Part shown: positions 44-19,316 of the stretch, piece by piece
Numbering within the stretch: position 1 is the first letter of the stretch
Layout of the letters: each line of letters starts with the position of its first letter
From: a virus
IMG/VR virus record: IMGVR_UViG_3300013131_000273
Location: 1 to 22,204 of that record
Strand: one strand, 5' to 3'
Length of the DNA stretch: 22,204 nt
The notes under the pieces: model-generated
What the model saw: only the letters and a program-made list of their open reading frames with translations
Database searches by the model: none
Told to the model about the DNA's origin: nothing
Translations under genes and position numbers: made by a program

Positions 44-68
44 CCCCAGGTAGCGGTGGCGAACTCGA

Positions 69-107
69 CGCCCGGACCCTCCTTACGGCGGGTCCGGGCG
101 TTGTCTT
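69..107 (+). terminator. Intrinsic terminator upstream of the modification operon
   Basis: A perfect 11-bp GC-rich stem (69-79 with 90-100) encloses a 10-base loop and is followed by a T-rich tail (TTGTCTT, 101-107). It lies just after the upstream stop codon and ahead of the modification operon, so it should isolate the operon from read-through. It is the best hairpin in this part of the window. Confidence 0.8.
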
Positions 108-180: not shown

Positions 181-186
181 ATGAGT

Positions 187-1365
187 ATGGACCAGCCCGA
201 TCCTCGCGCTGAACTACGAACGAAAGACGGGCTGGAGTGGTGGGAGTGGAAGCGCGAGGACGGTGTTCGCCAGATCCACCTCACGGGCAAGGGTTGCCTC
301 TCTGATTCCGAAACCGACGCGCTCGCCGGGGAGTTCCTCACGGAATCCCACTACTCGGTCCTACTGAGAGACGAGGACGCCGACGTGTACCGACCGGAGT
401 CGGTTAGCGCGCTCGCTATGTTCGCCGGGGGCGAATCGGAACCCGTTGAGGAACGGCTACTCGTTTCGATCCGGCGGGGCGCGCTCCCGAAGTCGGTGAC
501 CCGTCCGGCCTGGGGGATTCTCCGCAAGGCGGCTCACGCCTCCAAGAATCGCGGCTTCGCGGCGGGGAAGGCGACCGCCGAAGGGCTGGGGAAAGACCCG
601 TCCCGGTTTATCTCGCGGGGCGGGGCGACGGCTCGGTACCTGACCCAAGACGGTATGCTCTCCGAGACTTCCGAGAGCAACATGGTTCTCTCGGGCATCG
701 TCGGTAACTTCAACTCGACCCCCCGGAACCCCTACTGCCGTCAGACGGCGTTTACTCGGGATAACTTCGACGAGTTCCTGACGGCGATGCCGCTCATCGA
801 GGAGGCGAACCTCGCTTTCAAGAAGCTCGTCCCGACCCGCTGGGAGAATCAGCGCCGCTTCGTTCAAGATACCGACCTCGCCAAGAAGGGGTGGACGCTC
901 GGCGATACGGTGTTCTCCACGATCACGGTCAACAAGAACTACCAGACCGGCGTCCACAAGGACGCCGGGGATCTCCTACGGGGATTCGGCAATCTGATGG
1001 TGCTGGAAGGTCCGACCCACGCTTACCGGGGCGGTCATACCGTCTTCCCGAAGTTCCGGGTCGCCGTCGATCTCCGGGAGGGGGATTTCCTGGGGATGGA
1101 CGTTCATGAGTGGCACGGTAACACGGCGCTCTCCTCCGCCGTCGAGGGGGAGGACGATTGGGAGCGGATCAGCGTCGTCTGCTACGTCCGGGTAGACATG
1201 ACGAAGTGCGGCACCCAGGAAGAAGAGTCCCAGAAGCACGAAACCTGGCAACAGCGCTGGCGCAATCCCCTAGAGCAGCACGCCTTCCGCCTAGAGGAGG
1301 ATCGCGTCTATCAGGAGGGGCTCGCCTACGCTTCTAGCGTACTGTTCAATACCGAGGAAACGTGA
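187..1365 (+). CDS. TET/JBP-family 2-oxoglutarate/Fe(II) DNA base dioxygenase
   Basis: This 392-residue protein is predicted to hydroxylate the 5-methyl group of a pyrimidine in DNA (thymine, or 5-methylcytosine if a C5-methyltransferase exists elsewhere), giving a 5-hydroxymethyl base. The double-stranded beta-helix motifs are visible: the HxD metal pair in GVHKDAGD (H257, D259), a GGHTVFP strand, the distal metal ligand in HEWHGNT (H310), and an Arg for 2-oxoglutarate in ERISVV (R327). The stretches FSTITVN, DAGDLLRGFG and RISVVCYVR match the TET/JBP subfamily rather than AlkB or prolyl hydroxylases. The N-terminal 130 residues are less conserved. The ATG at 187 is chosen because GGAGGT sits 6 bases upstream. 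It is the first gene of an operon whose next members act on hydroxymethylated bases, and its stop overlaps the kinase start by 4 bases. The family call is firm; the substrate base is not determined. Confidence 0.88.
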   Translation: MDQPDPRAELRTKDGLEWWEWKREDGVRQIHLTGKGCLSDSETDALAGEFLTESHYSVLLRDEDADVYRPESVSALAMFAGGESEPVEERLLVSIRRGALPKSVTRPAWGILRKAAHASKNRGFAAGKATAEGLGKDPSRFISRGGATARYLTQDGMLSETSESNMVLSGIVGNFNSTPRNPYCRQTAFTRDNFDEFLTAMPLIEEANLAFKKLVPTRWENQRRFVQDTDLAKKGWTLGDTVFSTITVNKNYQTGVHKDAGDLLRGFGNLMVLEGPTHAYRGGHTVFPKFRVAVDLREGDFLGMDVHEWHGNTALSSAVEGEDDWERISVVCYVRVDMTKCGTQEEESQKHETWQQRWRNPLEQHAFRLEEDRVYQEGLAYASSVLFNTEET

Positions 1366-1949
1366 ACGACCGTTCATCCGAGAAGAAGGTACTCTGGGTC
1401 CTGGGGGAGCCGGGGGTCGGTAAGACGACGCTCGTTCGCGAGCTAACGAGGGGGCTCGACCTCTCGTTCGTTGAGAATCCGAAGTGGACCCTAGCCGAAG
1501 GAATCGCTCTCGCCGGTCACTACAAGGGCGGTACGTTCGACGGTGCGGATACTGTCCCGTACAACGGCGTCGAGGCGGCGCTCCAGTACTGGGAGGGGAA
1601 CCTGCGCGATAGGTACCCGTTGACCCTGCTCGACGGGGATCGATTCTCGCACGATGGCGCTCGGCAGTTCTTCTCCGAGAGGGCGGCGACCTACGCGGTA
1701 CTGCTAACGGCCCCAGAGGAGCTAGTCGCCGCTCGTCGGAAGGAGCGGGGGTCGAACCAGTCCGCTACTTGGATCGCGGGACGCAAGACGAAGTCCGCCC
1801 GATTCTTTGAGGGCTTCGCTGATTCCCGGTCCCTAAAAATCGACGGTTCCCTGGCCTCCAGCGAAATCGCGGATCGGGTACGGGACCTACTTCAGAACGG
1901 GTCGGGCGTCAGCGAGTCGGACAACCCGCTCGCGTGGTTTGGGTCATGA
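1362..1949 (+). CDS. P-loop kinase of the 5-hydroxymethylpyrimidine DNA kinase type
   Basis: This 195-residue protein starts at GTG within a GTGA overlap with the dioxygenase. It has a Walker A loop (GEPGVGKTT, residues 15-23), a Walker-B-like Asp in TLLDGDRF, and a basic lid region with SNQSATWIAGRKTKSARF. These are features of the kinases that phosphorylate 5-hydroxymethyl-dU in phage DNA (HMUDK, studied in Salmonella phage ViI and Pseudomonas phage M6). The inferred role is to activate the hydroxymethyl group made by the dioxygenase as a phosphate or pyrophosphate leaving group. The helical domain found in some HMUDK proteins is absent here; a helical protein is encoded next instead. The kinase fold is certain from the P-loop. 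The DNA substrate is inferred from the lid motif and the neighbours. Confidence 0.75.
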   Translation: MNDRSSEKKVLWVLGEPGVGKTTLVRELTRGLDLSFVENPKWTLAEGIALAGHYKGGTFDGADTVPYNGVEAALQYWEGNLRDRYPLTLLDGDRFSHDGARQFFSERAATYAVLLTAPEELVAARRKERGSNQSATWIAGRKTKSARFFEGFADSRSLKIDGSLASSEIADRVRDLLQNGSGVSESDNPLAWFGS

Positions 1950-2878
1950 GCGACGTTCTGTCTCTGTTCGACGTTTCTCCGCCGAAGTTAGACGACCGCC
2001 CTTACCAGGAGCGGCCCCTGTTCGATTCGTTCGTCGCCTTCTCCAAGGCGCAACTCCACAGCGGGGACATCGACCCCGCCTACCCCGTTCTGAAAGAGAT
2101 TTACCGGAGGAGGGGGTACTCTCCAGACCAGGCGCTCTGGCACACGCTGCTCTACGTCACCTGGTACAACCTCGGGTCCGCTGAGCGGGCTTTCAGTCAG
2201 TATCCCGACCCGTCGAAGAGCCTCGACGAACCGCTCGTTCTACCTACCGGCACGGAACGTCGCTCGTTTCGGGGGAACGACCTAGCCCGATCCCATCTAA
2301 ACTCGCTGCTAGACTTGTCGAAGCCGCACGGGTCTCTGCTCGCCTGGTTGAGAAAAGCGAGCGAGAAGACCGGGGAAGAAGGCTGGGACGGGGTGCGAGA
2401 GGAGTTCCAGCGCGTCAAGTACGCCGGTCCCTGGAGCAGCTACAAGCTGGCGGACCTACTCGCCCACGTTCACGATTTTCCGATTACGGCTTCAGACCTG
2501 GGCATCGGCGGAGCGAGCGAGACGGCGGGTCCGATTCCGGGCATGGTAATTCTCACCGGATACGACTGGAAGAAATGCGCGACCGACCTCTCGGTCCAGC
2601 GAGAGCTTCTCGCTCATAGCCGGTCGAGGGGGGTACCGTTCTCGGGTCTCGACCAGCTGGAGACTTGCCTCTGCGACTTCAACTCGCTCTCCAAAGGGCG
2701 GTACTATGTCGGTCACGACATCGACCAGCAGATGGAGCACCTCAAGAGCGCCTCTGAGGACTTCTGGGAGGCTAGGACCGTCTCTTTCCCCTCTCGATAC
2801 TTAGGAGAGCGTAACGGATGGGTCGGAGTCCGTAAGCATCTCAAGAGCGTTTTTTTCTTGACCGGAGAGATACGATGA
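1946..2878 (+). CDS. Amino acid:DNA transferase-like protein (aGPT-PPlase2 type)
   Basis: This 310-residue, mostly helical protein starts at the ATG in an ATGA overlap with the kinase, which is preferred over an upstream GTG at 1934. The segment LDQLETCLCDFNS...KGRYYVGHDIDQQ (about residues 237-262) has the conserved Cys/Asn and GHDID residues I associate with the family first called alpha-glutamyl/putrescinyl thymine pyrophosphorylases. That family was later shown to transfer glycine or serine onto phosphorylated hydroxymethyl-dU in DNA. The proposed role is to displace the phosphate with an amino acid or amine. Its position directly behind the kinase fits. I cannot tell which amino acid is used, and it could instead be a detached helical domain working with the kinase, since the two helical families are related. 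Confidence 0.65.
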   Translation: MSDVLSLFDVSPPKLDDRPYQERPLFDSFVAFSKAQLHSGDIDPAYPVLKEIYRRRGYSPDQALWHTLLYVTWYNLGSAERAFSQYPDPSKSLDEPLVLPTGTERRSFRGNDLARSHLNSLLDLSKPHGSLLAWLRKASEKTGEEGWDGVREEFQRVKYAGPWSSYKLADLLAHVHDFPITASDLGIGGASETAGPIPGMVILTGYDWKKCATDLSVQRELLAHSRSRGVPFSGLDQLETCLCDFNSLSKGRYYVGHDIDQQMEHLKSASEDFWEARTVSFPSRYLGERNGWVGVRKHLKSVFFLTGEIR

Positions 2879-3717
2879 CCGATCTGTTCGGAGTGAAACA
2901 GGAGCCTCTCCTGGCGGACGCTACCCCGATTGAGATGGTGACGGATCGAATCTCAGTGAAGAGGGAGGACTTGTGCTCCCCCCATCCAGGCCCTTCCTTC
3001 AGCAAGATCCGGGGCGTGCTGAAGCACATTGAAAAGCGAGCCGAGAGCGAGATCGGGGTCCTCGATACCTACCACTCTAAAGCTGGTTGGGCGGTATCCT
3101 ACGTCTCCCACCACCTGGGCAAGAAGGCGCTCGATTTCTACCCTCGGTACAAAGACGACGGACCGGAGCTTCGCCTTCAGCAGAAGATGGCCGCGCAGTA
3201 CGGCGCGGAACTGTTTGAACTTACGGCGGGTAGGAGCGCAATTCTCTACCATCGCGCCCGTAAAGAGTGTAATAGCCGAGGGGCCTATCTTATGCCTAAC
3301 GCCCTGAAGCTACCGGAGACGGTGGAGGAGTGCGCCGAGGAAGTCCTACGCACTCCCGACCTTCACAGGTACGCAAACCTGGTGATCAGCGTATCGTCTG
3401 GAACGATAGCGTCGGGTGTCCTTCGCGGGTTCGCGAAAGCAAAAATCTATCCGAATGTCTGGCTCCACGCGGGTTACTCCCGCTCTGAGTCCGAGCTTCG
3501 TCGATATATCGCAACGAAAGTACCGAAGCTGACCTTCTGGCCCTCTGACGTGAATCTCGTCGATGAAAAGTATGGGTACAAGGACGCCGCGAAGGTCGAG
3601 GACCCGCCTCCCTTTCCCTGCAACCCCTACTACGATCTGAAGGCGTGGAAGTGGCTCGGGTCTAAAGGTGTGGGGGCGATGAAGGGTAGCGTCCTCTTCT
3701 GGAACATAGGAGCATGA
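2875..3717 (+). CDS. Fold-type II PLP-dependent enzyme (cysteine synthase/ACC deaminase-like)
   Basis: This 280-residue protein starts in an ATGA overlap. KREDL followed by PSFSKIRG is the usual beginning of a tryptophan-synthase-beta/ACC-deaminase-like domain, and K44 is the candidate Schiff-base lysine. A segment resembling the substrate loop (YHSKAGWAVSYVSHHLGKK) and a Ser/Gly-rich phosphate-binding turn (SVSSGTIASGVLRGF) follow in the expected order. At 280 residues it is shorter than typical members. Related PLP enzymes occur in phage thymine hypermodification clusters, where they act on the amino acid already attached to the base, for example by decarboxylation. That reaction is inferred from context here. 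Free amino acid metabolism is the alternative, but the tight operon placement argues against it. Confidence 0.7.
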   Translation: MTDLFGVKQEPLLADATPIEMVTDRISVKREDLCSPHPGPSFSKIRGVLKHIEKRAESEIGVLDTYHSKAGWAVSYVSHHLGKKALDFYPRYKDDGPELRLQQKMAAQYGAELFELTAGRSAILYHRARKECNSRGAYLMPNALKLPETVEECAEEVLRTPDLHRYANLVISVSSGTIASGVLRGFAKAKIYPNVWLHAGYSRSESELRRYIATKVPKLTFWPSDVNLVDEKYGYKDAAKVEDPPPFPCNPYYDLKAWKWLGSKGVGAMKGSVLFWNIGA

Positions 3718-3718
3718 C

Positions 3719-4468
3719 ATGGGGATTGTGAATTACGAAGGTAAGTTGACCTACTACGTCATGGGGAAGTACCCCCTTTCGATCCACGAAGAGGACCTGG
3801 ATACGGCTTCGACAGGGGCTGGATCCCGAGGGTACTTCTATTACCTCCAGAAGAAGCCTCTAGACCTGGACAAGAACAATCGGTGCTTCAACCAGATGCT
3901 GGACGTGGCGGTCGCGTCCGGTCTTCCGAACCATCTCCGGGTCGTTGAGTTCTTCGGGGGCATCGGTTCGTCCGCGACCATCATCCAGGAGCGACTTCGC
4001 CCTCAAGAACACCTTATCTGGGACCTCGATCCGTTCTGCGCTCGGCATCTGAAGCGGGCGTTTGAAAATCGAAGCGGAGTGACCGTGACGGAGGGGGACG
4101 CTTACGCCCAGGCTCCTCTTGCGGTCACTCCGGACACTCTCCTCGTCGCCGATTTCAACACGTTCTCCATCCTGTACTTGACGAAGGAGAGACCGGAGGC
4201 GAAGGCGCTTGGAGCGTCCCTCGCGGCGCGTCCGAGGTGGGCGGTTCTCACCGACTCAGCCGTCAATAAGTTTCATCTCAATCGCGTTCCGTATGAGAGA
4301 GTGTTCGGGCGCGAGATCCGGTCTATGGAGGAGTACGGGGCGGCTCTCAGCGAATACCTCTCTCAGAGGTGGGGATACCGGATCGTTAGTTCTGCCGGGC
4401 ATCGAAACGCGACCTACTACTTGGTCGAGGCCGGGAAGTCGGTTCCTTTCCAGACCTTGAAGCTGTAA
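3719..4468 (+). CDS. SAM-dependent methyltransferase-like protein of unknown target
   Basis: This 249-residue protein starts at ATG 3719, with AGGAG 6 bases upstream. RVVEFFGGIGSSATII (from about residue 74) looks like motif I of a Rossmann-fold methyltransferase. It is followed by LIWDLDPFCARHLK, where the acidic residue would bind the SAM ribose, and by LLVADFNTFS (D145), which occupies the motif IV position. It lacks the Pro-Cys and ENV motifs of C5-cytosine methyltransferases, and DFNTF is not the DPPY/NPPY of N-methyltransferases, so it may methylate the new side chain or have lost methyl transfer. About 70 N-terminal residues are unassigned. It sits between the PLP and radical SAM genes in the same operon, so a tailoring step is the likely role. 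Confidence 0.55.
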   Translation: MGIVNYEGKLTYYVMGKYPLSIHEEDLDTASTGAGSRGYFYYLQKKPLDLDKNNRCFNQMLDVAVASGLPNHLRVVEFFGGIGSSATIIQERLRPQEHLIWDLDPFCARHLKRAFENRSGVTVTEGDAYAQAPLAVTPDTLLVADFNTFSILYLTKERPEAKALGASLAARPRWAVLTDSAVNKFHLNRVPYERVFGREIRSMEEYGAALSEYLSQRWGYRIVSSAGHRNATYYLVEAGKSVPFQTLKL

Positions 4469-4481
4469 CAGAAGGATTTAC

Positions 4482-6887
4482 ATGGATCTCGATGCATGGC
4501 TCGCGGACGACCTGGCTTCGGAAGAAACCCGAGAGGCGTACCAATACTTCATGAAGCCGGAGCCCCGCGACATCGTCGGGGACCTAGAAACGGACCCCGA
4601 GACGGGAATCCGCTCTCGGCTCATGAAGATCGGAATGGTGCGGGGGACAAAGGACGACGACAAGAAGACCGTCCGCGTCTACCTCGATCCGCTCCCTCAT
4701 ATCCGTCTTGACGAGGGGAAGCCGCTCCAGGGCTGGTACAAGTCGAAGCACGAGGAACCGGGGGTTCGTAACCGACCCTGCTTTACGGACGCGGTGCTCA
4801 CCCAGCCCTATGGAGGCTTCTGCTCGGTGGGTTGCGCGTTCGCGGTATACTCTGGGGAATGGATCGATACGCCATCCGGACCGAAGCTAGTAGACGCGAT
4901 CCGCATCGGGGACATCGTGTGGGGTCGAGCGCCCGAGGGAATCGTTCCGACTCGGGTCTCCGACAAGATCAAGAAATGGTCTCCCGACGGGATTCAGATC
5001 ACCCTTTCAAACGGACAGCGAGTTCGATTGAATGGGGAGCATCCGATCTGGGCTCCTCAAAAGGGAGGTTGGATCGAAGCCCGCGACCTTCGTCCTGGGG
5101 ACGAAGTGGAGAGCTTCTCCGATGACCTCATCCTGCGAGAAGTGCGGGAAGCCTACGGGTACAAGCGCGGGGAGGTTTTGCTCGGGTTGCAGGAAGATCC
5201 GATGGAGAGAATCCTTCAAAGAGCACCCGCATCCACGGAAGAAACCGCCTCGCGCCTGCGAACGATGTTCGGGTCTGACTCCGAATCGAAGTCGGAAGTT
5301 TTGCAAGGCTTGTTCTCCGATCGCGCGATCCGAGAGGATGCGAGGCAACGCGCGGGGCGAGAAGGAACAGAAGTTCTGCTCGTGCGGGGCACCTATCTTG
5401 CGTCGGAGGAAGATCTGCGAGATGTGTCTCGTCGAACACCGTCGAACAGCTCCTCGGGGCAATACGAACGGGCGTTCCTTGAAGGGGCAGAAGAAGTCCG
5501 CCGAATGGATGCGCAAGTTCTGGGTTCGTTTCCATTCCGAGCGGATGAAATGGCCTACGAAGGGGCTGCGTTCTCCCTACGAACGGAAGGACGGAACGCT
5601 CGTTTCTCTTCGTTCCAGCTGGGAGTGGAGGGTGGCTACCTTTCTCGACGCTATGACCGCTCGGAAGCTCCTCACGTCGTCGATGTCCGACCGATACCGG
5701 CAGGCTATGTCTACGATCTCGAAACGGCTACCGAGAACTACTACCTGAAGGGTTCGGAGAATCCGCGCTCTCCGGCTCTTCTCGTACACAACTGTTACGT
5801 CAACAGCGGCTTCAAGGGCTATCGGGGGTCAGGTCTGATCTCAGTCCCGATGAACTACGGCGCGCAGGTCCGTAACAGCCTCAAGAAGATGAAGACCTCG
5901 GCAGCGGGGTACTTCAGCTCCTTCACCGACCCCTTCCTCCCTCTGGAGGACGTGTACCACAACACCCAGGAAGGCGCTCAGGCGTTCGTCGATGAGAAGC
6001 TGCCCGTCTTCTTTCTCTCGCGGCTCAAGTACCCGTCCTGGGCTTACGACATCCTGCGGAAGAACCCCTACAGCTACGCACAGAAGAGTATCAACTGCGC
6101 GAACCCCGAGGACTGGAAGCGACTCTCTCCGGGAGCGGCTTCGCTTGCCGTTCACATGGAAGACATCCGCGAGCTGCGTAAAGCCGGTATTTACGTCAGT
6201 ATCCAGGTGAACCCCATCGTTCCCGGCGTCGTCAATCACGACGACGTGGAGCGGATCTTTGAGATGCTCGCAGAAGCCGGGGCGAATCACGTCATCGTCA
6301 AGTTCGTTGAGGCGGGGTACTCGTGGGCACCGGCGATGGCGGACAGAATCAAGTTCCGCTTCGGCGAGGAGAGGGGTCGGAAGTTTGAGAGCCTCTTCAC
6401 CGAGAACATCGGGGGTCAGCGGACCATCGTAGAGGACTACCGTCTAGAGGGGCACCGCCGCTACCAGAAGGCGGCTACCCGTCTGGGGATGACCTACGCG
6501 ACCTGCTACGAGTACCGGATGGAGCGGGATGCGACGGGTCGAGTGACTAACAAGACGGGGGTTTCCGTAGGCAAGGAGTTCCTGACGGCGGATCAGTGCC
6601 ACGGTCATCGCGTTCCGATGTTCACCCGGAACCACATCAACGAGCCTTTCCAAGAAGTCCAGGAGTGCCCCCCCACGGGTTGCCTGTCCTGCGCGGACGA
6701 CAACGGAGGTAAGTCTCGTTGCGGGTCAGACCTATTCGGCTCGGCCCCTGCTCTTCGGCTTCCTGACTTGAAGGTCGGCGTCTACGAAGAGGTACCCGAA
6801 AAACGTAAAAAGTCTCTGCCCGTGGTCGGCAACTCTGGCCCTTCGCTTCCGAAGTCGATGTCGGAGTTGTTCGATTTCGACGAGTAG
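4482..6887 (+). CDS. Radical SAM enzyme precursor interrupted by an intein
   Basis: The 801-residue precursor should splice to a 484-residue enzyme. C114 and C118 lie before the intein and C438 immediately after it; once joined they read CSVGCAFC, the CX3CX2C motif that binds the [4Fe-4S] cluster. The C-extein continues with features like the SPL/COG1533 radical SAM group (SSFTDPFLPLE, and INPIVPGVV-like strands written here as VNPIVPGVVNHDD). Near the end is a second Cys set, C729, C734, C737 and C747 in precursor numbering (CX4CX2CX9C), which may hold an auxiliary cluster or zinc. Radical SAM isomerases in phage M6-type clusters rearrange a glycyl-thymidine side chain, and a similar carbon-skeleton step is the working guess here. 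AAGGA lies 5 bases before the ATG. It is the last gene of the operon, followed by a 29-base gap. The radical SAM class is firm; the reaction is inferred. Confidence 0.85.
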   Translation: MDLDAWLADDLASEETREAYQYFMKPEPRDIVGDLETDPETGIRSRLMKIGMVRGTKDDDKKTVRVYLDPLPHIRLDEGKPLQGWYKSKHEEPGVRNRPCFTDAVLTQPYGGFCSVGCAFAVYSGEWIDTPSGPKLVDAIRIGDIVWGRAPEGIVPTRVSDKIKKWSPDGIQITLSNGQRVRLNGEHPIWAPQKGGWIEARDLRPGDEVESFSDDLILREVREAYGYKRGEVLLGLQEDPMERILQRAPASTEETASRLRTMFGSDSESKSEVLQGLFSDRAIREDARQRAGREGTEVLLVRGTYLASEEDLRDVSRRTPSNSSSGQYERAFLEGAEEVRRMDAQVLGSFPFRADEMAYEGAAFSLRTEGRNARFSSFQLGVEGGYLSRRYDRSEAPHVVDVRPIPAGYVYDLETATENYYLKGSENPRSPALLVHNCYVNSGFKGYRGSGLISVPMNYGAQVRNSLKKMKTSAAGYFSSFTDPFLPLEDVYHNTQEGAQAFVDEKLPVFFLSRLKYPSWAYDILRKNPYSYAQKSINCANPEDWKRLSPGAASLAVHMEDIRELRKAGIYVSIQVNPIVPGVVNHDDVERIFEMLAEAGANHVIVKFVEAGYSWAPAMADRIKFRFGEERGRKFESLFTENIGGQRTIVEDYRLEGHRRYQKAATRLGMTYATCYEYRMERDATGRVTNKTGVSVGKEFLTADQCHGHRVPMFTRNHINEPFQEVQECPPTGCLSCADDNGGKSRCGSDLFGSAPALRLPDLKVGVYEEVPEKRKKSLPVVGNSGPSLPKSMSELFDFDE
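4842..5792 (+). mobile_element. Intein with Ala at position 1, inside the radical SAM cluster motif
   Basis: The intein spans 317 residues (precursor 121-437). It starts AVYSGEWIDTPSG and ends LLVHN, with Cys+1 as the first C-extein residue. Block A-like (VYSGEWI, then LVDAIRIGDIVWG), block B (NGEHPIW, His187), block F (YVYDLETATENYYL, Asp412) and block G (H436-N437) are all present. Residue 1 is Ala, so the usual acyl shift at Cys1/Ser1 cannot occur. This matches class 2 (KlbA-type) inteins, in which Cys+1 attacks the upstream bond directly. Block F has Asp rather than the Cys of class 3. The borders are fixed because only this split restores CX3CX2C. About 190 residues between blocks B and F do not resemble an endonuclease in this frame, but another frame does. 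Codons such as cga, ttg and aat are commoner here than in flanking genes. Confidence 0.9.
5122..5748 (+). CDS. Out-of-frame homing endonuclease-like ORF nested in the intein, probably truncated
   Basis: This frame, shifted relative to the intein, encodes 208 residues from the ATG at 5122, with GGAG 10 bases upstream. It stays open further upstream to an ATG at 5032, but recognisable protein begins at MTSSCEKCGKP. Three zinc-knuckle units follow: C5/C8 with C20/C23, C46/C49 with C61/C64, and C86/C88 with C99/C102. Then comes GTLVSLRSSWEWRVATFLDA (E168), which resembles the opening of PD-(D/E)XK/EDxHD-type phage homing endonucleases. The expected later catalytic part (a PDF-like strand and the following acidic or basic residues) is missing, because intein blocks F and G occupy that DNA in the other frame. 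Either this is a decayed endonuclease overprinted by the intein frame, or two compensating frameshifts separate it from an in-frame fusion. The in-frame intein translation over the same DNA contains no Cys. Confidence 0.6.
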   Translation: MTSSCEKCGKPTGTSAGRFCSGCRKIRWRESFKEHPHPRKKPPRACERCSGLTPNRSRKFCKACSPIARSERMRGNARGEKEQKFCSCGAPILRRRKICEMCLVEHRRTAPRGNTNGRSLKGQKKSAEWMRKFWVRFHSERMKWPTKGLRSPYERKDGTLVSLRSSWEWRVATFLDAMTARKLLTSSMSDRYRQAMSTISKRLPRTTT

Positions 6888-8981: not shown

Positions 8982-10364
8982 ATGACGTGGACCCCCACTA
9001 CCTACCCCCTCCCACCGATGAACGTGATGGTGGTGACGCCCTTTGAGAAGGGCGCTCTCGACATCCGTTGGGACGACCCCGCGCTGTTGGGCGCTAACTC
9101 CGCTTACAACGTGCTCGGGGTCAACGTCTACAAATCGGTGTCGAGCGACCGGGGACCGTTCCAAAGGGTCAACTCGTTCCCGGTCGGGGGTACGTTCTTC
9201 CGGGATTTCACCGACGTGGCGCTCGTCGCCGACGAGGTCATCCCGTGGGACGCGGGGTGGCAGTCTCGCGGCCACGCGCCGAACGACCCTCGGTGGACGC
9301 TCAAGACCCGCTACCCGATTTACAAGCCTCGCACGCAGGGTATCTACGCGAACTCGCCCGTAGATGTATTGGCGACCGTGAACGGCGTCCCCGCGTGGGT
9401 CACCGACGTATTCGGCCAGAGCAATGAGGTCACGCTCGGTAACTACTTGCAGTTGAACCCGACGAACGATAGGTTCGTGTTCTCGCCGATTCCGTCCGGT
9501 CCTGCCGATGCCGTCGTGGTGTCCTACTACACGCTGCGGAACGTCGTCTCGGTCGGCGTAGACAAGAAGACGTTTTACCGGCTCACGACGGTCGCTGAGG
9601 ACGCTTCCCAACCGGGAGGTCTGATCGAGACGCCGCTCAACGTCACCCAACCGTCGAGCGATATGCAAATCGAGCAGCTCGACTACATCTGGCGCGAGGG
9701 GATGCGCCGGAACCGCTGGATCCTTGAACAGGGCGGCGAGCGGGTCAAGCTCTTCTGCCAGAAGGTCACGGGCGTGCCGTGCGAGTGTCGCCTAGAGATC
9801 GACGCTCGCTCCCGCGCCTACAACAAGCAGCCCTCCAACAGGTGCAAGGTCTGCTACGGGACGGGGTTCGTCGGCGGCTACGAAGGCCCCTACGACATCA
9901 TCGTCGCCCCGGACGACGCCGAGAAGCGCATCTCCCAAACCATCACGGGTCGCCGGAAGGAGCACTCCTACGAGGTGTGGATGAGCTTCTCGCCCATCGT
10001 CTCGCAACGCGACTTCATCGTGAAGCAGAACAACGACCGCTACTCGATTGGTCCGGTGCGTCGCCCGACGAACCGAGGCAACGTGATGCAGCAGCACTTC
10101 AACATCGCGTACCTCGACTCCCCGGACATCCGGTACTCGGTACCCATCGACGGCGCGGACGCCTCGCCCAATCTCCCGTGGCCTCAGACCCGCTACACCT
10201 ACACGCCGTACCGCGAAACGTACAACGCCGTGGATACGCCGCCTTGGCCCGTCACGCCGGATGCGAACCTCCCGCTCGCGACCGACAAGAACGGTCACGG
10301 TGAGGTGCCTGATCCCGTCCAGATTCGCTGGCGTACCGGGACTGGGGAGAACCAGAACTACTGA
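8982..10364 (+). CDS. Putative virion structural protein with a zinc knuckle
   Basis: This 460-residue protein follows a strong GGAGGGGAGG site. The N-terminal part has a fibronectin-like feel (ALDIRWDDP...YNVLGVNVYKS), with beta-strand repeats up to about residue 220. The middle holds C267/C269 and C288/C291 in PCEC...NRCKVCYGTGF, a DnaJ-like zinc knuckle. The C-terminal third has conserved-looking segments with many Tyr and Pro (PDIRYSVPIDG, TPPWPVTPD). The size, lack of enzymatic motifs and place at the head of the neck/tail block suggest a head-tail connector or other virion component. The exact role is not established. Confidence 0.6.
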   Translation: MTWTPTTYPLPPMNVMVVTPFEKGALDIRWDDPALLGANSAYNVLGVNVYKSVSSDRGPFQRVNSFPVGGTFFRDFTDVALVADEVIPWDAGWQSRGHAPNDPRWTLKTRYPIYKPRTQGIYANSPVDVLATVNGVPAWVTDVFGQSNEVTLGNYLQLNPTNDRFVFSPIPSGPADAVVVSYYTLRNVVSVGVDKKTFYRLTTVAEDASQPGGLIETPLNVTQPSSDMQIEQLDYIWREGMRRNRWILEQGGERVKLFCQKVTGVPCECRLEIDARSRAYNKQPSNRCKVCYGTGFVGGYEGPYDIIVAPDDAEKRISQTITGRRKEHSYEVWMSFSPIVSQRDFIVKQNNDRYSIGPVRRPTNRGNVMQQHFNIAYLDSPDIRYSVPIDGADASPNLPWPQTRYTYTPYRETYNAVDTPPWPVTPDANLPLATDKNGHGEVPDPVQIRWRTGTGENQNY

Positions 10365-10975
10365 TGGCTCCCGCCAAGAAAGTCCGAACTCGGTACGCCC
10401 GTCCGCTTCAGAAACGGGCGGGCGAGATTCGACTAGAGCGGAAAGACCTCGCTTTTTTCGGGAAGTGTCTCGTCAAGTTCGTCAAGGAGGAAGCCCGCAA
10501 GGACGCCTCCAAGTCGAGTCAGATCCCCGACACGAAGCGGTTTTTCGAGTCGTTCTCTTACCGGGTCACTACCGGCGGTATCGAGATTACTTCGACCTGG
10601 CCCTGGATGGAGATGATCGTTGAGGGAACTGACGGGCCGTTTCCGATGACCTGGCTAACTCAGGAAGCCTACGCGAAGGGCGGCGCTCCCGACGGCGGAT
10701 CCGAGCCCCAGGGTATCCGCAAGGGGTCTCTCTCCGATAAGCCGAAGCCTAGTAAGATCCTGCGTATTCCTATGAGAGCTAGCTCAGGGGAGATGGTCAT
10801 TCGCACGGCCCCTCTGATGATCAAGGACGCCTGGATACACCCCGGAGTCGCCAAGCACAACTTCGTGAATCGAGCTTTCCGAAAGGCTCAGGAAGTCTGC
10901 TTCCGAAACTGGGCGCGGAAGGGGAACCTAGAAACCGCGCTCTCCAAAGAGCAGGCGAAGAGGAAGAGCAAGTGA
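10364..10975 (+). CDS. Tail completion/neck-like protein
   Basis: This 203-residue protein shares one base with the previous stop (TGATG). It starts with a basic segment, continues with a helical region (FFGKCLVKFVKEEARKDA), then strands (GGIEITSTWPWMEMIVEGTDG), and ends with AWIHPGVAKHNFVNRAFRKA. The 'HPG...F..RAF' pattern is typical of small tail-completion or head-tail connector proteins of the gpS/HK97-gp10 sort. A role at the head-tail joint is inferred. Codon use is less biased than in the sheath region, closer to the modification operon. The next gene overlaps it in a GTGA. Confidence 0.5.
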   Translation: MAPAKKVRTRYARPLQKRAGEIRLERKDLAFFGKCLVKFVKEEARKDASKSSQIPDTKRFFESFSYRVTTGGIEITSTWPWMEMIVEGTDGPFPMTWLTQEAYAKGGAPDGGSEPQGIRKGSLSDKPKPSKILRIPMRASSGEMVIRTAPLMIKDAWIHPGVAKHNFVNRAFRKAQEVCFRNWARKGNLETALSKEQAKRKSK

Positions 10976-11598
10976 ACGGCGAAGTCGAGATTATCTGTAT
11001 CGGCGACAGCGCTGTGATTCCTGACCTGGGGCTGACCCTGTCTCGGGGTTCGCGGACGAACCTGAGCGCGTCGAACGCTTCCCGGTCGAAAGACCTGACT
11101 ATCGCTAGGGCGAAGGGGCTCGTCGCGGTACGAGAAGTCCGGGTCGCCATTCTCCGGCAATCCCCCCAGGAGTCTATGACGAAACCCCCGGACGAAGACC
11201 TGCTGAAGAAGCTGAACCGTCTGAACCGGCCTAATCCCGCTCCCCCTGCTTCGGAGAGCCCGGAGCTAGTCGCGGCGTTGCGAGACCTGACGCGAGAAAT
11301 CGCAGCTCTCCGCGCTGAGATGCAACAGAAGCCCGCCGTCTCGACGGATACCTCCGCTATCGCGGAAGCTGTGAGGTCGGCTCTCTCGGGCCTGTCTTTC
11401 GTAGCGCCGACCGCCTCGGGTAACGGTGCGACGATTTATTCAGGTTCTCCAGACGAGGAGCGATTCATTCCGTCGGGTATCGTACCAACGAACCTCAAGG
11501 CGGACATCTCCCCCAACACGACGAACGAGGGCGCGGGGTCACTAGAGGACGCCCAAGCTGCTCTTCGGGAGGCAAGGCGACGTGCCCGCGAAACCTAA
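10972..11598 (+). CDS. Coiled-coil structural-block protein
   Basis: The GTG at 10972 overlaps the previous stop. The 208-residue product has a compact beta N-terminus (VEIICIGDSAVIPDLGLTLS, with SRSKDLTIARAKGLVAV), a Pro-rich linker, a helical coiled-coil segment (VAALRDLTREIAALRAEMQQ) and a disordered tail containing ERFIPSGIV. I do not recognise a named family. The layout (small folded head, linker, helix, peptide motif) suggests an adaptor in the virion or its assembly. Its end overlaps the upstream GTG of the actin-like gene by 17 bases. Confidence 0.55.
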   Translation: MNGEVEIICIGDSAVIPDLGLTLSRGSRTNLSASNASRSKDLTIARAKGLVAVREVRVAILRQSPQESMTKPPDEDLLKKLNRLNRPNPAPPASESPELVAALRDLTREIAALRAEMQQKPAVSTDTSAIAEAVRSALSGLSFVAPTASGNGATIYSGSPDEERFIPSGIVPTNLKADISPNTTNEGAGSLEDAQAALREARRRARET

Positions 11599-12616
11599 GA
11601 AGTCACAGGAAGACATGGCAAAGCACCTCGGAGTCGGCCTCGACGTAGGCACCATGAACTTGGTCTCGGCCCGTAAGACCGACAAGGGCATCGAGACGCG
11701 CCGGATGCGCGATGCCTTCCTCGACCTCCCGCCGGAGTCGAAAAAGATGCTCAAGCTCTCAGGCGTGAGCTATGTGGACCGGGGCGACGAGATCCTCATC
11801 CTCGGAGACGCCGCGCTCGACACCGCCAACATCTTCGGACGCGAGGCTCGCCGTCCGCTCTCGGGCGGGCTCGTTTCCTCGACGGAGACGGACTCCCTAG
11901 AGGTGCTCGGGCTCCTCGTGCGGAACGTGCTCGGGGAACCCTCGGAGGAGGGAGAGCATTGCTACTTCTCGGTGCCCGCTGCCCCCATCGACATCCCCGG
12001 TCGGGATGTCGTGTACCACCGGGGCATCTTTGAGCGCATCGTCTCGGAGTGCGGCTACACGCCCACGGCGGGCAACGAGGCGATGGCGATCATCTACGCG
12101 GAGACGGCGAAGGAGGGCTTCTCGGGCATCTCGATCAGCTTCGGCTCCGGGATGAGCAACGTCGCGCTCGCCATGAACACCATCGAGGGTCTGACGTTCT
12201 CGGTGGGCCGGGGCGGGGATTGGATCGACTCGGGCGCGGCGAAGTCGATTGGCTCGACGCAGGCCCGCATTTGCGCCATCAAGGAGAAGGGCATCGACCT
12301 CAACAACCCGCAGGGCCGGGACCAAGAGGCGCTCGCCTTCTACTACAAGAACTTGATCGAGTACGTCATCGACCAGATCGCCCTCCAGTTCAAGAGCATC
12401 GAGGGGAAGTTCGCGCTTCCGAAGCCGATCCCGCTCATCATCTCGGGCGGTACGTCTAAGCCGACCGGCTTCGTTGAGTTCTTCACCAAGCTCTTCGACA
12501 AGAGGCGCAAGCGGTTCCCCATCGAGGTGAGCGAGATCCGCGCCGCCTCGGACCCGCTCAACGCCGTCGCGAACGGCCTCTTGGTGCAGGCTCTTCAGGA
12601 ATACGACAATGACTGA
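11582..12616 (+). CDS. Actin-fold (ParM/MreB/Hsp70 superfamily) ATPase-like protein
   Basis: This 344-residue protein shows the actin-superfamily nucleotide pocket. Phosphate 1 is VGLDVGTMNLVSA (D21, G23), phosphate 2 is GISISFGSGMSNVA (residues about 182-194), and the adenosine motif is LIISGGTSKP (G289-G290). The Asp normally found in phosphate 2 is Ser (S186), so ATP hydrolysis may be altered. In related bacterial proteins actin-like filaments position plasmids or phage DNA; which, if any, applies here is unknown. A GTG at 11582 has GGGAGG 9 bases upstream. An ATG at 11615 would remove 11 residues and avoid overlap with the previous gene, but its AGGA is too close. It lies unusually among neck and tail genes. 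Confidence 0.75.
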   Translation: MPAKPKKSQEDMAKHLGVGLDVGTMNLVSARKTDKGIETRRMRDAFLDLPPESKKMLKLSGVSYVDRGDEILILGDAALDTANIFGREARRPLSGGLVSSTETDSLEVLGLLVRNVLGEPSEEGEHCYFSVPAAPIDIPGRDVVYHRGIFERIVSECGYTPTAGNEAMAIIYAETAKEGFSGISISFGSGMSNVALAMNTIEGLTFSVGRGGDWIDSGAAKSIGSTQARICAIKEKGIDLNNPQGRDQEALAFYYKNLIEYVIDQIALQFKSIEGKFALPKPIPLIISGGTSKPTGFVEFFTKLFDKRRKRFPIEVSEIRAASDPLNAVANGLLVQALQEYDND

Positions 12617-14360: not shown

Positions 14361-17300
14361 ATGCCCAGTCTTCTTCGCGGCGGCTACGCGCCCCCCGGTG
14401 TATACACCCAGACGTTCTTCGGTTCCGCTCCCGGTGCAGTCCCGGTTCCCAATCGGATTCCGGTGTTCGTCGGTACGGGCGTCGAGATCCTGAGCCGATT
14501 GAATCTGCCCGTGGTCCGGGGCTCGTCCTCGACCATCGACCAGCAGATTGTCGATGAGGACCAGTCCGGTCGCGCCGTCGTCAGCGTCTCGCCCAGCGGC
14601 GCGGTGACTCTCGGTTCGTTCAACGGGACCCTCCAGAAGTTCCAGGTTCGCAACTTCCCCATCGTCTCGGGCGACGGTACGGGCACCCCGGCGACGGACA
14701 CCTCCTCGGTGACCTGCCGCGTCAACGGCTTCCCGATTGTCGTTCTCGGCCTCGACGCCGCGAAGGGCATCGTCGAGATTTCGGTCGCCCCCCAGGCGGG
14801 CGATACGGTCGTTTGCACTTATTTCTTCGACCGCACCGACACGCTGATCACCGACACGGTTTCGGATCAGGTCACGGCAGAGTCGGCGATCATCGACGGG
14901 GCGCGGGGCCAGAACTTCTCCTTCGTCGCGGCGACGACGGACGTGTTCTCGGTGTCGGTGGACGGGCTTCCGTTCGTGAATATCACGATGCCCTCCTCGG
15001 CCCCCTCGGTATCGGCGGCGGTCGTCGCGGCAACGATCTCAGGCGCAACGGGCATCGGCTCGCTCGTCGCCTCGACGTTCGTGGACAATCTCGGCCAGAC
15101 CCGTATCCGCCTCACCGCCGACAAGTCCATCGTCATCGGCACGGGTACGGCGAACACGGCCCTCGGCTTCGTCCCGAATACGGCGACGAGCCGCAACCGT
15201 ATCTTCTACACGTTCAACGGCCCCATCGTTGACGGTGAGGGAGGCGGTCTGACGACGACGGATCCGGCGGACGTGACGGTTCTCGTCAACGGCCTCCAGG
15301 TCATCCCCTCGGCGGTAGACGGCTCGACGCGGGCGGTGACCCTGCCGTTCGCCCCGGCCCCCGGCAGCACCGTTACGATCCGCTACTACTTCAACACGTG
15401 GCAGGATACGTTCGACTACCTCGCCAACGTCGGCGTCACCGAGATCACCCGCGCAGCGGTCACCCCGGACTCCAACGGCGCGGGCGTCTTCATCCAGGGC
15501 GAGAGCTACGTCCTCAAGAACGACACGATTGTCTGGGGTACGGCGGCGCTCGTCTCCTCGGGCGTCCACACGGAAGGCGGAGTCACCTTCGGTACGTCGC
15601 AGGTCTCTGCGATGCTCGTGGACAACCGCGCGTACCTCGCGGAGTGCTCCGCGACGGTCAACTCCTCGGGTCCGGTCGCGGTCGCCTCGACGACGGTGTT
15701 CCAGCTTCCGTATCAGCCCACGACGGGCAACGGTCGCGGCAACCCGCTCTCGACCAGCCTCTACAACACGGTTGCGAACGGTCGGATGGATCTCCCGACG
15801 ACCCGCCCCGACCTCGTGATTGCGTACTGGGGCTTCGGCGTTCTCGACGCCCTGGAGCGCGGTCCGGTCACCGTCCTCAAGGTGGACCCGGATCTCTCGC
15901 AGGTCACCCTCGCGACCCCGGTGCCGGAAGGCGCTTCGGTCTACGCGACCTTCTACTACAACATCCTCGTAGACGCCGCGTTCATCGGCTCCTCTACCGG
16001 ATACACGCTCACCTCGGCGGTCGCGGGAGCGGGCGGCATCGGCACCTACACGATCTCTGGCCCCTCGGGCGCGAACCTCTACGGGGCGAGCCTTACCGGG
16101 AAGGGTTCCGACCTCACGACGGTCCAGATCGTCTTCCCCTCGGGTTCGGAGTTCACCCCGGATTCGCGCCTTGAGGGCGGCGTTCCGGTCGAAGAGGTCG
16201 TCACCGTCGAGTTCGCCTCCTCAGACGAGACGCCCGCTCGGTTCACGGCTCCCGGCCCCGGTCCCTACTATCCCGTAGAGAACATCTCGGATCGGTTCCG
16301 TATCACCTTCAGCGGTTCCGACCAACAGACCGGCCTCGCGGCGGGTATCGACCTCTCCTCTCCGACGTTCGGCTCTCGCGGCGGCGCGTTCGCCTCCTAC
16401 GTCGGCGCGGAGGTCGAGTACACGGCGGCTTCCGGCCAGACGACCTACGACCTGACGGCGGGTGTCGATGACGAGATCAACCTCGTCCTCGACGGCGTGT
16501 CGATCTCGGCCTCGACCGGCACGGTAGCCGGTGCAGACGCGACGACGTTTGAGGCGGCGCTCAACTCGGCGGCGGTCGCGGTCGGTAACGAGCCCTACTA
16601 CGTCTCGGCGGGCGCGTTCCCCTCAGGCTTTGAGGTAATCGTCAACGAGTACGACCAGATTCGCCTCCACTACACGGGCGACGTTTCGGGTCCGTCGGGC
16701 GCGGTCACCTTCACGCTCCCGGTCGCGGTCTACGCGAGCGCGGGCGCTCTCGCGACGGCTATCGACGCGCTCGGCCTGACCCCCGGCGGTAGCACGGTCA
16801 ACTGCTCGGCGACGGCGGACGGGAACCTCCGGTTCACGCTCACCTCTCTCGCGGTCGGCGACGCGGCGGGTTACATCGAGTTCATCACGAACGCGACCCC
16901 TGCTCGGGACTTCACGATCCTCGCGGGTTTGAGCGCGGGAGCGGCGACGAACGACGACCAGGCCAAGCTCTACAACGGTCCCGTCGCTCGCGTTGTCGGT
17001 ACGACGACTACGGCGGGTCGCCGTCCGTATGACCGGATTGTCCTGCGCAACCGTATCTTCCCCGGCGCGGGCGTCTACACGTCGTTCCACTCCTCAGTCG
17101 CCCAGACCCTCCTCCAGCTCCAGGGCGGTTCGGGTCAGTCGAAGGCGGGCCTCCTCATCGGGAATACCGGCGAGGCGACCTACGGCGCGAACGTCAAAGG
17201 CGCGTCGGTCCTGGCGCTCACGGGCTGGTCGGAAGGTCAGTACCCGACGGGTACTCCGGGCCTCAGCGGTCAGCCCCTCGTCACGTTCTACGACGGGACG

Positions 17301-19316
17301 GGCACGGTCCCCGCGAACAACTACTTCGTCTTTGAGGCGAATAGCGTCCTGGTCCCCGTGACGTTCACGGCGTCTGGTGCGGGTACGGCGACGGCCCTCG
17401 GTCCGGCGTCGAATCCGGCCTCGGTCATCGGCCAGATCATTGCAGCGGTCGGCGCGACGACGGCGAACGTCTCCGTGTACCAGGAAGGCGCGGGCGTCCG
17501 GCTCGTCTGCGACGACCTCACCCCCTCGGCGACGCTTACGGTCGGCGCGGGTTCGGCCAACGGGATCCTCGGGTTCTCGGAGGGCGATACCTCGGTGCCG
17601 TCGGGCGTGACCGCGAAGCAGCTCGCCTCGGCCCTCATGAACCACGCCGCAGCGAACGGCAACTTCGCTAGCGTGACCATGAACGGGTATCAGAGCCCCA
17701 ACGTGGCCTACTTCGCGGGTCGGGCGCTCGCCTCGGTCGAACTCGATTCGACGGGGAACGAGTACCTGTACCTGGAGTGCGGGACGCAGGGCGTGACGGC
17801 TTACGGTGTCGCGTCGAGCATCCTCTTCAAGACGCCGGTCGCCGACGACGTACTCGTGACGGGTACGCTCCTCCTAATCAAGGCGGGCGACGGGTCGAGC
17901 GGCGAAGCGGCCATCAACGGCTTCTTCGTCATCTCGACGGATCCGGCGAACGGCTCCGGCTCCGCGAACACCTCGGTCCTCAACTCCGGCGTCGGCCAGG
18001 ACGGCTTCGTCGGCCAGACCTACCGCGACGAGGTAACGGGCTTGACCTTCACGGTCCTCCCGCGTGCGGGTGCGATCCCCTACCCGACGGGGCCGAATGC
18101 GACGCTTACCTTCCGGGTAAGCAAGACGTTCACCACCGACGGGAACATCCCCACCCTCGCCATCCCCGGCGTCGAGCTTACCGTGACCAACACGGCGGGC
18201 GTCGTCTCGGGCGACTCGGCCCTCGTTGAGACTTTCAAGAAGACCGGCGACGAGCCGGACATCGGCGAGGTCTACTACGTCAGCTACCGCTACCAGAAGC
18301 AGGACTTCACCCCCCGCCTCTTCTCGCGGCTCTCGGACGTAACGGCGGAGTACGGCCTCGTTAGCCCGGACAACCCGCTCTCCCTCGCGGCCTATTTCGC
18401 GTTCCTCAACGGCGCGAGCGTCATCGGCACCTACCAGGTGCTCAAGCAGTCGGGATCCTCGCAGGCCAGCGAGCAGGCGTACCTCGACGCCCTCGTCGCG
18501 CTAGAGGGGGCGAGCCTCCCCGGTAATCTCAACCCGACGGTGCTCTGTCTCCTGACCCCAGCGACGCAGAACCTCGCCAAGGCGACGGCGATTCACTGCG
18601 ACATCCAGTCCTCGATCCGCTACCGCGCCGAGCGCACGGCGATCTTCGGATTCGCCTCGGGCACCCAGCCCCTTGCGGCGGGCGCTATCGCTACGGCGAC
18701 GGGTTCGACTCGCGTTCGGTTCGTCTACCCGGACATCGCGACGATCACGCTCACCGACTTCCTCAACCAACAGCGCGATTACCTCGTAGACGGTCGGTAC
18801 CTCGCCGCAGCGGTCACGGCGGCGACGACCTCGATGTCGGTGGATCCGGCGACCCCGTGGACGGGGCGGCTCCTGTCGGGCTTCACCGCCCTCCAGCGCC
18901 GCCTCGACGCGGTACAGGCGAACCAGGTCGCGTCTCGCGGCGTGACCGTCATCGAGGACCGGCTTCCGTTCCTCCGAGTCCGTCACGGCCTCACGTCGGA
19001 CATGACGAACGTCCTGACGAAGACCCCGACGGTGATCCAGATCGCCGACGAGATGCAGCGTCGGTGCCGACTGGTGCTTGACCCGTACATCGGTATCAAG
19101 TTCCTCCCCCAGGTCATCGGCCAGATCGAGGGCCAGCTCTCGGAGATGTTCAAGCGGTCAATCGCCGAGCAGCTGATCACCTCGTTCACCGGGATCAACG
19201 TCGCGGTCGATCCCGAAGACCCGACGGCAATCCTCGTCGAAGCCTACTACGTCCCGGTTTTCCCGCTGCTCTACATCCAGATCACCCTCCGGGTGTCGGC
19301 GCAGTCCCAGGTCTGA
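14361..19316 (+). CDS. Giant contractile tail sheath protein
   Basis: This 1651-residue protein begins like tail sheaths (GGYAPPGVYTQTFF). From about residue 1303 it carries a typical sheath core (FTPRLFSRLSDVTAEYG, LAAYFAFLNGA), ending with LTSDMTNVL, PYIGIKFLPQVIGQIEGQLSEMF and a beta C-terminal arm (LYIQITLRV). The sheath forms the contracting outer tube of the tail. Typical sheaths have roughly 400-700 residues; about 1000 extra residues are inserted here. Three related beta units start near residues 117, 305 and 486, with the shared pattern V-(V/L)NG...V(T/E)(L/I)...P..G..V...Y(F/Y)(F/Y). Other segments (about 185-275, 684-850, 988-1075) resemble the Ser/Thr/Gly-rich beta units of flagellin-like insertions. 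These may decorate the tail surface. Two hairpins precede the gene and one follows it, and codon bias is strong, as expected for a highly expressed protein. Confidence 0.85.
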   Translation: MPSLLRGGYAPPGVYTQTFFGSAPGAVPVPNRIPVFVGTGVEILSRLNLPVVRGSSSTIDQQIVDEDQSGRAVVSVSPSGAVTLGSFNGTLQKFQVRNFPIVSGDGTGTPATDTSSVTCRVNGFPIVVLGLDAAKGIVEISVAPQAGDTVVCTYFFDRTDTLITDTVSDQVTAESAIIDGARGQNFSFVAATTDVFSVSVDGLPFVNITMPSSAPSVSAAVVAATISGATGIGSLVASTFVDNLGQTRIRLTADKSIVIGTGTANTALGFVPNTATSRNRIFYTFNGPIVDGEGGGLTTTDPADVTVLVNGLQVIPSAVDGSTRAVTLPFAPAPGSTVTIRYYFNTWQDTFDYLANVGVTEITRAAVTPDSNGAGVFIQGESYVLKNDTIVWGTAALVSSGVHTEGGVTFGTSQVSAMLVDNRAYLAECSATVNSSGPVAVASTTVFQLPYQPTTGNGRGNPLSTSLYNTVANGRMDLPTTRPDLVIAYWGFGVLDALERGPVTVLKVDPDLSQVTLATPVPEGASVYATFYYNILVDAAFIGSSTGYTLTSAVAGAGGIGTYTISGPSGANLYGASLTGKGSDLTTVQIVFPSGSEFTPDSRLEGGVPVEEVVTVEFASSDETPARFTAPGPGPYYPVENISDRFRITFSGSDQQTGLAAGIDLSSPTFGSRGGAFASYVGAEVEYTAASGQTTYDLTAGVDDEINLVLDGVSISASTGTVAGADATTFEAALNSAAVAVGNEPYYVSAGAFPSGFEVIVNEYDQIRLHYTGDVSGPSGAVTFTLPVAVYASAGALATAIDALGLTPGGSTVNCSATADGNLRFTLTSLAVGDAAGYIEFITNATPARDFTILAGLSAGAATNDDQAKLYNGPVARVVGTTTTAGRRPYDRIVLRNRIFPGAGVYTSFHSSVAQTLLQLQGGSGQSKAGLLIGNTGEATYGANVKGASVLALTGWSEGQYPTGTPGLSGQPLVTFYDGTGTVPANNYFVFEANSVLVPVTFTASGAGTATALGPASNPASVIGQIIAAVGATTANVSVYQEGAGVRLVCDDLTPSATLTVGAGSANGILGFSEGDTSVPSGVTAKQLASALMNHAAANGNFASVTMNGYQSPNVAYFAGRALASVELDSTGNEYLYLECGTQGVTAYGVASSILFKTPVADDVLVTGTLLLIKAGDGSSGEAAINGFFVISTDPANGSGSANTSVLNSGVGQDGFVGQTYRDEVTGLTFTVLPRAGAIPYPTGPNATLTFRVSKTFTTDGNIPTLAIPGVELTVTNTAGVVSGDSALVETFKKTGDEPDIGEVYYVSYRYQKQDFTPRLFSRLSDVTAEYGLVSPDNPLSLAAYFAFLNGASVIGTYQVLKQSGSSQASEQAYLDALVALEGASLPGNLNPTVLCLLTPATQNLAKATAIHCDIQSSIRYRAERTAIFGFASGTQPLAAGAIATATGSTRVRFVYPDIATITLTDFLNQQRDYLVDGRYLAAAVTAATTSMSVDPATPWTGRLLSGFTALQRRLDAVQANQVASRGVTVIEDRLPFLRVRHGLTSDMTNVLTKTPTVIQIADEMQRRCRLVLDPYIGIKFLPQVIGQIEGQLSEMFKRSIAEQLITSFTGINVAVDPEDPTAILVEAYYVPVFPLLYIQITLRVSAQSQV

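Follow-up and report, generated by a model that had tools for sequence, protein, structure and literature searches.

A viral operon predicted to build hypermodified thymine couples a TET/JBP-type dioxygenase to an M6-type remodeling tail

We analyzed a 22.2-kb fragment recorded from a virus, referred to here in its full length as the window, and located at positions 181–6887 a six-gene operon that probably builds a hypermodified thymine after replication by placing a TET front end before the chemistry of phage M6. In the proposed pathway, the TET enzyme would turn thymine in DNA into 5-hydroxymethyl-dU by hydroxylating its 5-methyl group, a P-loop kinase would phosphorylate the hydroxymethyl group and an amino acid:DNA transferase (ADDT) would exchange the phosphate for an amino acid linked through its amino group, glycine being the most likely. 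A radical SAM enzyme would then shift the bond from the nitrogen to the alpha carbon, and a PLP enzyme would remove the carboxylate to yield 5-(2-aminoethyl)-dU or a close relative. The remaining protein, which is methyltransferase-like, may modify the side chain further or serve an unrelated function. We infer the first five of these steps from homology, from the genes present and from patterns of mutual exclusivity. The same order of glycine attachment, radical SAM isomerization and subsequent PLP decarboxylation was reportedly described by Lee et al. in 2022. The likely purpose of the modification is protection from host nucleases. Because the PLP and radical SAM enzymes of the window are close homologues of M6 proteins, we take 5-(2-aminoethyl)-dU, which M6 DNA contains (PMC6449724; PMC11946847), as the default product.

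The original prediction had described a six-gene hypermodification operon, joined mostly by 4-base overlaps and preceded by a terminator. All six forward genes were verified (Table 1), the last of them at 4482–6887, and three of the five junctions are 4-base overlaps (GTGA at 1362, ATGA at 1946 and ATGA at 2875), the last two being gaps of 1 and 13 bases. Upstream of the operon, RNA folding identified a strong hairpin (−35.1 kcal/mol, z −5.24), in agreement with the prediction, but the structure has no clear T-run and is missing from the list returned by a consensus terminator scan; we therefore regard a terminator as only likely. The functional assignment held: Tet_JBP, Ploopntkinase3 and ADDT matches exceed their Pfam cut-offs, which does not place the kinase and transferase in unrelated families, and the PLP and radical SAM proteins resemble M6 gp52 and gp53.

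Table 1 Features of the operon region and its upstream boundary
Feature	Position	Strand	Evidence
GC-rich hairpin, probable terminator or insulator	about 66–103	+	RNA fold
TET/JBP-type 2-oxoglutarate/Fe dioxygenase, 394 aa	181–1365 (alternative start 187)	+	PF12851, phrog_24024
P-loop kinase, predicted 5-hydroxymethyl-dU DNA kinase, 195 aa	1362–1949	+	PF18751
Amino acid:DNA transferase (ADDT / aGPT-Pplase2)	1946–2878	+	PF18724
Fold-type II PLP enzyme, M6 gp52 homologue	2875–3717	+	phrog_7093
Predicted class I SAM methyltransferase-fold protein (gene 5)	3719–4468	+	AF2 model, Foldseek
Radical SAM N-extein (M6 gp53 homologue), first two CxxxCxxC cysteines	4482–4841	+	
Intein in radical SAM gene, 317 aa (951 nt)	4842–5792	+	Intein_splicing PF14890
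Out-of-frame ORF in intein, three zinc-ribbon motifs	5122–5748	+ (+1 frame)	codon bias
Radical SAM C-extein: third cluster Cys, SAM domain, Cys-rich C terminus	5793–6887	+	

The first gene product matches Tet_JBP (7.8e-18, 64.7 bits; cut-off 34.9) and phrog_24024 (2.4e-72). Its residues H259, D261, H312 and R329 are invariant in an alignment across three homologues; from knowledge of the family, we take the first three to form the HxD...H iron site and R329 to be the 2-oxoglutarate arginine. The adjoining kinase matches Ploopntkinase3 (1.5e-7, 31.6 bits; cut-off 27), has an invariant Walker A motif in the alignment (GEPGVGKTT) and is 29% identical to gp4 of the Gordonia phage Wooper, annotated as a 5-hmU DNA kinase. 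Sequence searches against the PDB returned no match for either protein. In another contig (L006, 97.6 kb), in which ADDT was not detected, a TET domain and a P-loop kinase are fused in one 723-aa ORF (8983–11154), which supports consecutive steps for the two enzymes. From this fusion and the operon context, the kinase of the window is predicted to phosphorylate 5hmdU in DNA.

For the third gene, the match to the ADDT profile (1.6e-13, 51.3 bits; cut-off 26.2) is complemented by profile matches to the PDB entries 25qc (ADDT, 3.8e-16) and 8z2m (glycinyltransferase, 5.1e-10). This resemblance to solved glycinyltransferases is in line with glycine as the added amino acid. The PLP enzyme falls just below the PALP cut-off of 35 bits (34.8 bits, 1.5e-8), matches phrog_7093 at 9.7e-85 and is 54% identical to M6 gp52; a sequence search against the PDB gave no match. 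Across nine homologues, the lysine in its F-S/A-K-x-RG motif is invariant. The radical SAM gene belongs with phrog_9252 (1.4e-203), a phage family annotated as ‘DNA repair photolyase’. In its predicted spliced form (484 aa), the protein is 62% identical to M6 gp53 over almost the full length, with 65% identity over 345 aa for the C-extein. The M6-type tail thus retains the catalytic lysine of the PLP enzyme, and its CxxxCxxC motif is whole once the intein is removed. These data agree with the original proposal that an amino acid is attached and then remodeled by a PLP enzyme as well as a radical SAM enzyme, for which the ADDT and the M6-like proteins provide sequence-based support.

To place the operon among related loci, we gathered records by their ADDT, PLP and TET genes and typed them with profiles. 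Among 62 whole records, 34 carried TET and 11 a member of the thymidylate-synthase-like hydroxymethylase family, with no overlap between the two (P = 4e-5, kinship ignored), although most records are fragments and absences are therefore weak. For the 19 records longer than 50 kb, the corresponding numbers were ten and five (P = 0.011, kinship again ignored). No thymidylate-synthase-like hydroxymethylase was found among the ORFs of the window, itself a fragment, or in the 265.9-kb contig L007. As the original prediction had suggested, this mutual exclusivity favors hydroxylation on DNA and not in the nucleotide pool. Besides the window, at least two other contigs hold the full set of TET, kinase, ADDT, PLP and radical SAM genes, namely L007 and, with the genes ordered differently, L032; we therefore consider it a recurrent permutation and not a one-off. 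In the radical SAM tree, the window and L007 pair within the M6-type clade (100/100), whereas L032 and its relative L033 form their own branch away from that clade. TET thus came together with such a tail on two or more occasions, or the tail itself was exchanged. Scanning bacterial genomes with the radical SAM protein uncovered four loci, spread over three MAGs, and every one of these loci has a thymidylate-synthase front end. In a separate contig (L029, 7793–10137), a gene resembling inositol-1-phosphate synthase, assigned by eye, adjoins a TET gene of the window type, with a kinase and ADDT about 5 kb upstream.

An intein that the initial reading of this DNA had overlooked interrupts the radical SAM gene. 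The ORF comprises 801 aa with the intein and 484 aa without, and the insertion, with boundaries ...FCSVGCAF / AVYSGEW...LLVHN / CYVNSGF..., is precise when compared to the uninterrupted M6 and L007 proteins. It lies directly before the third cysteine of the CxxxCxxC motif, a residue invariant among all radical SAM homologues aligned. The Intein_splicing match (7.7e-4) is beneath its curated cut-off; the residues at the splicing ends are intact (Ala1, HPIW, the C-terminal His-Asn and the +1 Cys). These features predict that the iron–sulfur cluster motif of the radical SAM enzyme becomes continuous only after the intein has been spliced out. In a further contig (L014, 4689–7282), intein halves divide the second radical SAM gene and flank an ORF that has weak restriction-endonuclease-like matches. 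As in the window, the gene is broken ahead of the third cysteine of the cluster motif.

Within the intein, a second ORF of 208 aa starts with ATG in the +1 frame and encodes three CxxC-type zinc ribbons. Codon bias shifts into this frame at about 5320–5690; a +1 frame open over such a length is expected by chance in about 0.3% of cases, and three zinc ribbons appeared in 1 of 20,000 shuffles. Profile searches gave weak zinc-ribbon matches only and no recognizable nuclease domain, and no relatives were found in phages or viral contigs. The ORF may be a hidden homing-endonuclease gene, but because no nuclease domain is detectable we treat it only as a candidate or a remnant. An assignment as a complete Vsr-like homing endonuclease was unsupported, with no catalytic domain detected. 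Out-of-frame endonucleases within phage genes have been published (PMC11855218). Like the window, ShiLan-type insertions carry an additional out-of-frame ORF in an insertion that is open in the host frame, but the ShiLan insertion encodes an HNH nuclease and has no intein splicing motifs (PMC11855218), whereas the window combines a recognizable intein with a zinc-ribbon ORF whose nuclease domain is unproven. A second case of an ORF hidden in an intein was noted in the TerL gene of Mycolicibacterium phage phi1_186018 (L030, 600–1700), where a Cys/His-rich ORF in another frame resembles an endonuclease VII-type HNH protein (family named by eye).

Gene 5 had no family match in profile searches, no match in a sequence search against the PDB and none in a single-sequence scan of viral contigs. 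An AF2 model built from two alignment rows was poor (pLDDT 46), and four rows gave a usable one (pLDDT 72.7, pTM 0.75). According to this model, the protein is a class I SAM methyltransferase (Rossmann) fold: Foldseek matched it to PDB methyltransferases with a best E value of 1.5e-7, at TM scores of only 0.4–0.5, and to two uncharacterized phage methyltransferases with E values down to 4.6e-16. Profile scans of viral contigs recovered few relatives. In L023, L037, L021 and the Pseudanabaena phage Pam3, a relative of gene 5 adjoins genes for a PLP or radical SAM enzyme, and we accordingly view gene 5 as a recurrent accessory. Since each of these four contigs places its relative next to hypermodification genes, we reject the view of gene 5 as peculiar to a single phage. 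A further permutation is seen in L021, L018 and L024, where two divergent radical SAM pieces come after the PLP enzyme; neither ADDT nor an M6-type radical SAM enzyme was found on these three contigs, and L021 is the one with the gene 5 relative.

The presence of a methyltransferase-fold gene within the operon raises the question of whether cytosine and not thymine is modified, with TET making 5hmC from 5mC, the tail building an amino-acid-derived cytosine and gene 5 supplying the methyl group. Phage TETs acting on 5mC are known, and Burke et al. reportedly showed in 2021 that TET enzymes in other phages do so; counting against the thymine reading, 5mC could also be supplied by the host or by an undetected methyltransferase. 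We nevertheless find the cytosine route improbable. Motif IV of gene 5 reads DFNTF (DFNxF) and not the Pro-Cys of C5-cytosine methyltransferases; given this and the missing PF00145 match, we reject the idea that gene 5 supplies TET with 5mC as a C5-cytosine methyltransferase. In addition, PF00145 was absent from all TET records tested (the window, L006, the 265.9-kb L007 and Wooper), L007 holds the same five enzymes without gene 5 and TET replaces a hydroxymethylase family specific for deoxyuridylate. The exclusivity of TET and thymidylate-synthase-like genes, the lack of PF00145 and the TET–kinase fusion together favor thymine in DNA as the TET substrate.

Even with thymine as the substrate, the end product could differ from that of M6 and be a new base, if the tail stops early or is diverted to give glycyl-thymidine or an amine or carboxylate methylated by gene 5. 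Several patterns point this way: gene 5 is absent from M6 and recurs beside radical SAM/PLP modules in five contigs, its relative in L037 occurs without a PLP gene, and L033 lacks PLP unlike its otherwise similar close relative L032, so that tails do vary. On the other hand, gene 5 is missing from L007, which has a radical SAM protein 88% identical to that of the window, and the structures that its fold resembles best are small-molecule and RNA methyltransferases of a generic kind; we consider a new thymine product possible but rather unlikely. The more specific proposal that gene 5 is a dedicated side-chain methyltransferase, contributing to a TET-made undescribed base such as N-methylated 5-(2-aminoethyl)uracil or methylated glycyl-thymine, is likewise tentative and somewhat doubtful. 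The final base need not be new, and gene 5 is the best reason that it might be; it also provides a defined candidate for an uncharacterized tailoring step. Finally, the operon might be inactive, with the intein blocking the radical SAM enzyme and the pathway stalling at an earlier intermediate. The split Fe–S cluster motif and an intein endonuclease region that looks degraded or displaced into another frame would fit such a loss, but the intact splicing ends, the open exteins with strong codon bias and the presence of all catalytic cysteines make it highly improbable. Hypermodification of thymine along the M6-like route, with splicing of the radical SAM protein, thus remains our preferred reading.

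Compared to known systems, the operon overlaps with the 5-(2-aminoethyl)-dU pathway of Pseudomonas phage M6 (Yuavirus), with which it has the PLP and radical SAM enzymes, an ADDT (20% BLAST identity to that of M6) and a P-loop kinase in common. A thymidylate-synthase-like enzyme and aGPT-Pplase1 are present in M6, FP1 and Pam3. The window differs from M6 in having TET and neither of these two genes, in the addition of gene 5 and in a kinase from another subfamily; the missing aGPT-Pplase1 counts against the preferred pathway. Pam3 also shares the gene 5 homologue, PLP, radical SAM, ADDT and kinase, but with the thymidylate-synthase front end and no TET. The sets of Rhodococcus phage Tonitrus and Gordonia phage Wooper contain, like the window, TET, aGPT-Pplase2 (ADDT) and a 5-hmU DNA kinase. 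Their fifth gene is a different one, a ParB-like gene is also present, and the PLP or radical SAM tail is absent from the set. The window TET is longer than the actinophage enzymes and belongs to a distant subfamily (24% identity). Of the two IMG/VR contigs with the full five-enzyme set, L007, the source of the closest radical SAM relative, lacks the intein and gene 5, and L032 differs in gene order, a ParB gene, an additional ORF and its separate radical SAM lineage.

The combination had been considered apparently new. This may apply to the joining of TET with an M6-type tail but not to the co-occurrence of PLP and radical SAM enzymes, both of which M6 has. TET, ADDT and kinase sets were already published for phages such as Tonitrus (PMC11955845) and are annotated in Wooper, and the five-gene set recurs in L007 and L032. 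Judged by sequence, the operon rearranges parts already known and adds one methyltransferase-like gene. We found no description of this exact permutation in the open-access literature, a search that key papers on the topic fall outside. The data suggest a modular first step in thymine hypermodification, in which one and the same remodeling tail would receive its substrate from hydroxymethyl-dUMP synthesized ahead of replication or from TET action on completed DNA, with phages apparently exchanging these front ends. A TET enzyme working on DNA could set the modification by sequence, without replacing thymine throughout, and the enzyme set might be used to make DNA with site-directed aminoalkyl-thymine.

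A third class of hypermodification locus was observed in L014, L017, L019, L020, L035, L037 and L072. These loci contain a kinase, ADDT and an M6-type radical SAM enzyme, most of them also PLP and ParB, together with a second, different radical SAM enzyme; members of the TET or thymidylate synthase families were not found in them. The second radical SAM enzyme may functionalize the thymine methyl group in an oxygen-independent manner.

Outside the operon, the window encodes a Volactin family protein (actin-like, 1.1e-73) at 11582–12616, in a region of phage structural genes. A further large gene at 14361–19316 encodes a 1651-aa protein with the N terminus PGVYTQ and weak Pfam matches only. It is possibly a giant tail sheath protein, in which case the virus would be a contractile-tailed phage.
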